Source: Candidatus Pelagibacter communis
GTDB lineage: Bacteria; Pseudomonadota; Alphaproteobacteria; Pelagibacterales; Pelagibacteraceae
Direction: 5' to 3'
Length of the DNA stretch: 48,534 bases
Assembly (NCBI RefSeq): GCF_001179945.1
Contig: NZ_CVSG01000012.1
Location: 1 to 48,534 of the forward strand
Shown here: positions 1 to 31,613 of the stretch, piece after piece
Layout of the letters: each line of letters opens with the position of its first letter
How positions within the stretch are numbered: position 1 is the first letter of the stretch
The notes under the pieces: generated by a model
Databases searched by the model: none
The model's input: the letters and a program-made list of their open reading frames with translations, nothing else
Told to the model about the DNA's origin: nothing
Made by a program: the position numbers and the translations under genes

Positions 1-61
1 CATCAATAGGGGAAATTACTTTTACTACTCCTGACTCCATCCCAATCTCTATTCCCAAGCC
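1..61. other. Inverted copy of an internal ctpA segment (probable amplification chimera)
   Basis: Bases 1-61 are the exact reverse complement of 1660-1720 inside ctpA: position p pairs with 1721-p with no mismatch. The match stops at base 62, where proA sequence begins. An 8-base word, AAACTCAC at 64-71, also occurs on the complementary strand of ctpA at 1650-1657, so the junction sits next to microhomology. A short inverted copy of sequence lying about 1.6 kb away, exactly at the sequence end, is the common form of chimera made by multiple displacement amplification. A real inverted duplication is possible but less likely. In proA's frame this segment contains a stop at 32-34. Confidence 0.85.
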
Positions 62-509
62 CTAAACTCACATGCTAAACAAATAATAGATACTCTTTTA
101 AATTCAGGCTGTGAGGTCAGAGCTGACAAAAAAGTTAATAAAATTTTTAAAGGAAAATTAAAAAACTTCAGAGAAAGACTGGAAAACTGAATATTTAGAT
201 GCCATTATTTCAATTAAGACAGTTAAAAATGTTCATGGAGCTGTCGATCACATTTTGAAATATGGCACAATGCATACCGATAGCATTATTACTGGTACTA
301 AAAAAAATGCCGAGATTTTTTTAAATGGTGTTAATAGCTCAATAGCAATGCATAATGTTTCAACTCAATTTGCTGATGGTGGAGAATTTGGTTTTGGTGG
401 GGAAATCGGTATCTCAACTAATAAGCTTCCACCTAGAGGTCCTGTAGGAATAAATCAACTAACTTCTTATAAATATATTGTTTCTGGAAAAGGAATTGTT
501 AGACAATAG
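62..509 (+). pseudogene. proA: Glutamate-5-semialdehyde dehydrogenase, 3' part with apparent frameshift
   Basis: This is the C-terminal third of gamma-glutamyl phosphate reductase, the NADPH-dependent second step of proline synthesis. From base 62 one frame gives HAKQIIDTLLNSG and GCEVRADKKV, which fit the family. A second frame continues with TEYLDAIIS, the HTDSIIT block, FADGGEFGFGGE and RGPVGINQLTSYK, ending at TAG 507-509. The frames join if one A is removed from the six-A run at 160-165; as written, the first frame stops at 188-190. The 5' part is missing because the left end is chimeric. I read the frameshift as a homopolymer sequencing or amplification error rather than true decay, since both halves stay well conserved. 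A TTG-started fragment at 255-509 is what automated callers would report. Confidence 0.85.
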
Positions 510-3385: not shown

Positions 3386-5683
<2,298 letters not shown>

Positions 5684-31088: not shown

Positions 31089-31613
31089 TTAAGACTTTTT
31101 CTCTTCCTTCTTTGGCTCTTCCTTTTTAGCCTCTGCTTTAGGTTGCTCCTTTTTAGGTTCTTCCTTCTTTGGCTCTTCCTTTTTAGCCTCTGCTTTAGGT
31201 TGCTCCTTTTTAGGATCCTCTTTTTTTACTTCATCTTTTTGATCTGGCTTTTTACCGTCAGCTGCTGGAGTATCCTTGTTTGTTTCTTCTTTTTTATCTC
31301 CTTCAGCTTTTTTTCTATCTTTTTTAGGAATAGCCTTTTGAGGATTGTTTCCAGGTTTAGGCATTGGCATCAACTGCACTTCTCCTAGTAGTCTAGAAAC
31401 TCTCATGGTTGGCTGAGCTCCTTTACTCATCCAATATTTTACTCGTTCGGCTTCTACTTTAATTCTTTCCTTTTTGTCTTTTGGAAGTAAAGGATTGTAT
31501 GAGCCAATTTTTTCAATAAATTTTCCATCTCTAGGATATCTACTGTCGGCAATTACAATTTTATAAATGGGTCTTTTTCTTACGCCGCCCATTGATAGTC
31601 TTATTCTTAACAT
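31089..31613 (-). CDS. rpsP: 30S ribosomal protein S16 with long repetitive tail
   Basis: S16 is a 30S assembly protein. The first roughly 85 residues are ordinary S16 (LRIRLSMGGVRKRPIYKIV, GKFIEKIGSYNPL, VKYWMSKGAQPTMRVSRLL). A tail of about 90 residues then runs to position 174, made of Lys, Glu, Pro, Ala and Gln, including two copies of a 19-residue unit KKEQPKAEAKKEEPKKEEP encoded by a 57-base tandem repeat. Such a tail is far longer than in most bacteria and should be disordered. It lies ten bases after the ffh stop. Confidence 0.94.
   Translation of the reverse strand: MLRIRLSMGGVRKRPIYKIVIADSRYPRDGKFIEKIGSYNPLLPKDKKERIKVEAERVKYWMSKGAQPTMRVSRLLGEVQLMPMPKPGNNPQKAIPKKDRKKAEGDKKEETNKDTPAADGKKPDQKDEVKKEDPKKEQPKAEAKKEEPKKEEPKKEQPKAEAKKEEPKKEEKKS
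31102..31214. repeat. 57-base tandem repeat inside rpsP
   Basis: Two adjacent copies, 31102-31157 and 31159-31214, match over 56 bases with a 57-base period. The base between them and the flanking bases differ. Because 57 is a multiple of three, copy-number change keeps the S16 frame. The unit encodes 19 residues of the charged tail. The near identity suggests a recent duplication or a site prone to slippage. Confidence 0.9.

Follow-up and report, generated by a model that had tools for sequence, protein, structure and literature searches.

An inverted ctpA copy at the left end of a Candidatus Pelagibacter communis contig, probably an amplification chimera

The window, a stretch of 48,534 bases, comprises the whole of contig C12 from a Candidatus Pelagibacter communis genome that is assembled into 101 contigs totalling 681,366 bases. 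Rightwards of approximately base 57 it shows the ordinary SAR11 gene order proA-nadD-rsfS-ctpA, beginning with native sequence of the 3' part of proA (57-509, plus strand). Bases 1-61, which probably form a chimeric tail of the contig, carry a piece of ctpA on the minus strand. As the original prediction had claimed, this piece is the exact reverse complement of 1660-1720 (61 nt, 100 % identity, 1598 nt between the arms), where the native plus-strand copy lies in an intact ctpA frame (1360-2532 as listed). Exact inverted repeats of at least 22 nt occur nowhere else in the window. Sixty-one exact bases rule out a chance repeat, and the position of the native copy in an intact ctpA frame rules out the terminal repeat of a mobile element. 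Elsewhere in the window, an exact 57-base tandem duplication (two copies, 31102-31214) codes part of the K/E/P/A-rich tail of a minus-strand ORF (31089-31613), which we take to be ribosomal protein S16.

The A run that follows position 159 (159-165) is two bases short in the proA sequence next to the inverted piece, and translations showed that the frame is broken there. The deletion was seen relative to every relative compared, eight in one alignment and five in another. Against the two closest, L003 (compared up to 3,624) and L004 (up to 3,798), only one other indel was observed: it affects a single base and lies after 2530, in the terminal A run of ctpA. The proA deletion could be either a real mutation or a sequence error caused by thin coverage at the contig end.

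The loci of relatives align to the window from approximately base 57 onwards, the point at which native proA resumes: the corresponding bases are AAAAAGCCCTAAACTCAC in L004, AAAAAGCTCTAAACTCAC in L003, CCCAAGCCCTAAACTCAC in the window and CCCAAGCCTCCAAACTCAC on the ctpA antisense strand. Across eight aligned relatives, native proA carries AAGC at 57-60; the two bases after it are CC, CT or TT, and these precede TAAACTCACATGC or a close form of it. The same stretch is TTCCCAAGCCCTAAACTCACATGC in the window and TTCCCAAGCCTCCAAACTCACCTC on the ctpA antisense strand. The breakpoint therefore falls within AAGC(C) at 57-61, a microhomology common to the ctpA antisense strand and proA that was delimited with the alignment of eight relatives and the leading bases of 26 relatives. 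The exact core homology at the join amounts to four or five bases, depending on this genome's native base 61. The original prediction had set the change of sequence beside an 8-base microhomology. The patch in question, AAACTCAC at 64-71, does match ctpA in inverted orientation and adjoins the join, but its partner GTGAGTTT occupies 1649-1656 and not 1650-1657, and one gap and one mismatch lie between the patch and AAGC(C). That the patch is the join itself is ruled out, since the relatives put the join at 57-61. Taken with 57-61, it would form an imperfect priming site of 15/16 nt: bases 57-71 aligned to ctpA 1664-1649 give 14 identities, one mismatch and one gap. Among 100,000 random inverted pairs drawn 0.2-10 kb apart from this window, none scored as high as the junction homology, while at least five bases of exact junction homology were found in 0.96 % of 100,000 such pairs.

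Both ends of each of the 24 unmasked contigs (48 ends) were compared, over the outermost 6,000 bases at most and, for C12, over its full length. Six contig pairs among these 48 readable ends dovetail exactly, by 48, 55, 55, 59, 62 and 66 bases. The left end of C12 matches no other readable contig end, and the contig stops 61 bases beyond the join. A comparable structure was observed in C43 (3786 bases; locus L154), in which bases 1-63 are an exact 63-base inverted copy of the contig's own right end, 3724-3786, a stretch that presumably belongs to a HisF-like reading frame. The first 500 bases of C43 had no syntenic relative among the matches listed, which besides C43 itself were short, and the left end of C43 is probably chimeric too. 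Inverted terminal copies were thus present in two of the 24 readable contigs and at three of the 48 ends (C12 left, and C43 left and right, which form one pair). As a control, 28 contig ends at the ctpA loci of relatives were searched for inverted terminal matches of 20 exact bases inside the same locus, and none was found; the single readable end of another genome, G061 (19 of its 20 stretches are N), likewise had no inverted terminal match. The contrast between 0/28 and 3/48 is weak, and 100-bp trimming of the relatives' contigs could explain it.

Since the six dovetails span 48-66 bases, the 61 bases of the inverted piece look like an assembly overlap, a length class that would also suit an origin other than multiple displacement amplification (MDA), namely a library-preparation chimera produced by PCR or ligation, or an error of the assembler alone. 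Such an origin is nevertheless very unlikely. A misjoin in the assembly graph could arise only over a long word common to both sequences. At the join, however, the ctpA antisense strand has only 4-5 plus 8 bases in common with proA, and a physical molecule with the join therefore probably existed. Blunt ligation, in turn, would not be expected to favour inverted partners 1.6 kb apart with homology at their junction.

The native state of the locus was assessed with a 1401-base proA-nadD query from L004, compared with 169 genomes of the genus, the window's own included. Among the matches listed, 166 of the 169 genomes had some match to the query, mostly a long one, and the remaining genomes had short matches elsewhere or none. 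With spanning taken to mean that a match covers the 100 bases to the left and to the right of the join, 123 long matches were tallied, again including the window's own genome; in 119 of the 122 other genomes proA continues across the join without a break. The suggested comparison with other SAR11 genomes for intact proA upstream of nadD thus came out as the original prediction expected. The three other matches that fail to span it break off at this place, where a contig ends or is close to its end: two begin at query position 757 and, judged by their coordinates, belong to the contigs of L074 and L005, which stop at that point, and the third begins at 859, 13 bases from the start of its contig. 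As a separate observation, base 1 of L005 and base 1 of L074 both correspond to window position 53, so that the contigs of two SAR11 relatives end at an identical proA base, four bases to the left of the window's join. Coincidence and a site fragile in amplification or assembly were both considered, the hotspot idea being based on two ends; if these assemblies underwent 100-bp end trimming, as seems possible, their real breaks would lie elsewhere.

The same data bear on whether the join could be a recent inverted duplication or template-switch inversion in the chromosome of one SAR11 cell, truncating proA. Consistent with such an event, the remaining proA is frameshifted, and neither the 5' part of proA nor its upstream region was found elsewhere in the window's genome, where the five other matches measured only 31-67 bases (24 of 101 contigs were readable, the other 77 consisting of N). 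The missing sequence is unremarkable, because the genome is only 59 % complete. Against a chromosomal event stand the closeness of the join to the contig end (61 bases, past which no sequence follows), the continuity of proA in nearly all other genomes with a long match, and the similar inverted end of C43. We consider a real inversion even less probable than a library or assembly artefact; if true, it would have cost this streamlined genome its proline synthesis.

The assembly likely has a single-cell origin, as had been proposed from the inverted join. This is supported, short of proof, by a completeness of 59.41 %, a contamination of 0.36 %, the division into 101 contigs and the names of its relatives. 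Loci retrieved with the ctpA protein (the best 80 of 101, 77-93 % identity) came from Pelagibacteraceae or Pelagibacter records, and 76 of these 80 bear AG- or AH- isolate names, which we take to denote single amplified genomes, some of these titles being also prefixed MAG. Of the other four titles, two contain the word SAG, one refers to HIMB058 and one to a TMED128 MAG.

Taken together, the inverted 1.6-kb join, the homology at the junction, its position at a contig end, the intact proA of relatives and the second inverted end in C43 argue, from sequence comparison, that the left end is very probably an MDA chimera left untrimmed in the assembly, an artefact and not biology, which is the reading that the original prediction had favoured. 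Chimeras of this kind have been characterized by Lasken and Stockwell (2007, PMC1855051), who reported that 85 % of 475 were inverted, that 337 of 406 inversions joined sequences less than 10 kb apart and that complementarity was present in 93.5 % of the inverted ones below 10 kb; in their explanation, displaced 3' ends prime on nearby displaced 5' strands. In the window the partners are likewise inverted and within about 10 kb (1598 nt between the arms), a 3' end would find complementarity at the junction, the native locus is continuous in relatives, and, as in the inverted phi29 chimeras described there, the junction complementarity is short and the sequence between the arms is left out. Unlike those chimeras, the present one is an assembled contig end and not a read, and its homology is an imperfect 15/16-nt match with an exact core of 4-5 nt. 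According to figures given by Tu et al. (PMC5372508), more than 95 % of chimera overlaps measure 3-13 nt and the distance peaks at 80-280 nt; the 1.6 kb observed here are inside the published range and above that peak. For products from single marine cells, Woyke et al. (PMC2668756) give a frequency of one chimera in every 13-27 kb. In a pipeline described in PMC5519541, both ends of every contig lose 100 bp and only contigs longer than 2000 bp are retained. The 61-base inverted piece would fall inside that trim, as expected of untrimmed contig ends in single amplified genomes; in contrast to the practice described there, contigs as short as 502 bases are kept in the present assembly, whose readable ends overlap each other.

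An MDA chimera could have formed at this locus as follows. A strand copied leftwards through proA (antisense, ending 5'-GTGAGTTTAGGGCTT-3') would have been freed during the phi29 reaction and would have annealed, via the imperfect 15/16-nt match, to the nearby displaced antisense strand of ctpA, 1.6 kb away. Its extension on the ctpA antisense strand would then join proA to inverted ctpA. Beyond the core, the homology continues on the side of proA, which points to the proA antisense strand as the most likely one to have switched template. The assembler, following a chimeric read, would have run on into ctpA over roughly the length of one overlap (61 bases) before stopping, presumably because this sequence was already inside the contig.

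For the biology of this SAR11 lineage, the inverted copy at the contig end carries nothing new, and its significance is that of a data-quality flag. The warning that synteny read from this end would mislead was borne out: neither gene order nor a loss of proA nor a duplication of ctpA should be read from the left end, and bases 1-61 should be trimmed. With inverted end copies in two of the 24 readable contigs, the other ends of the assembly deserve the same check.
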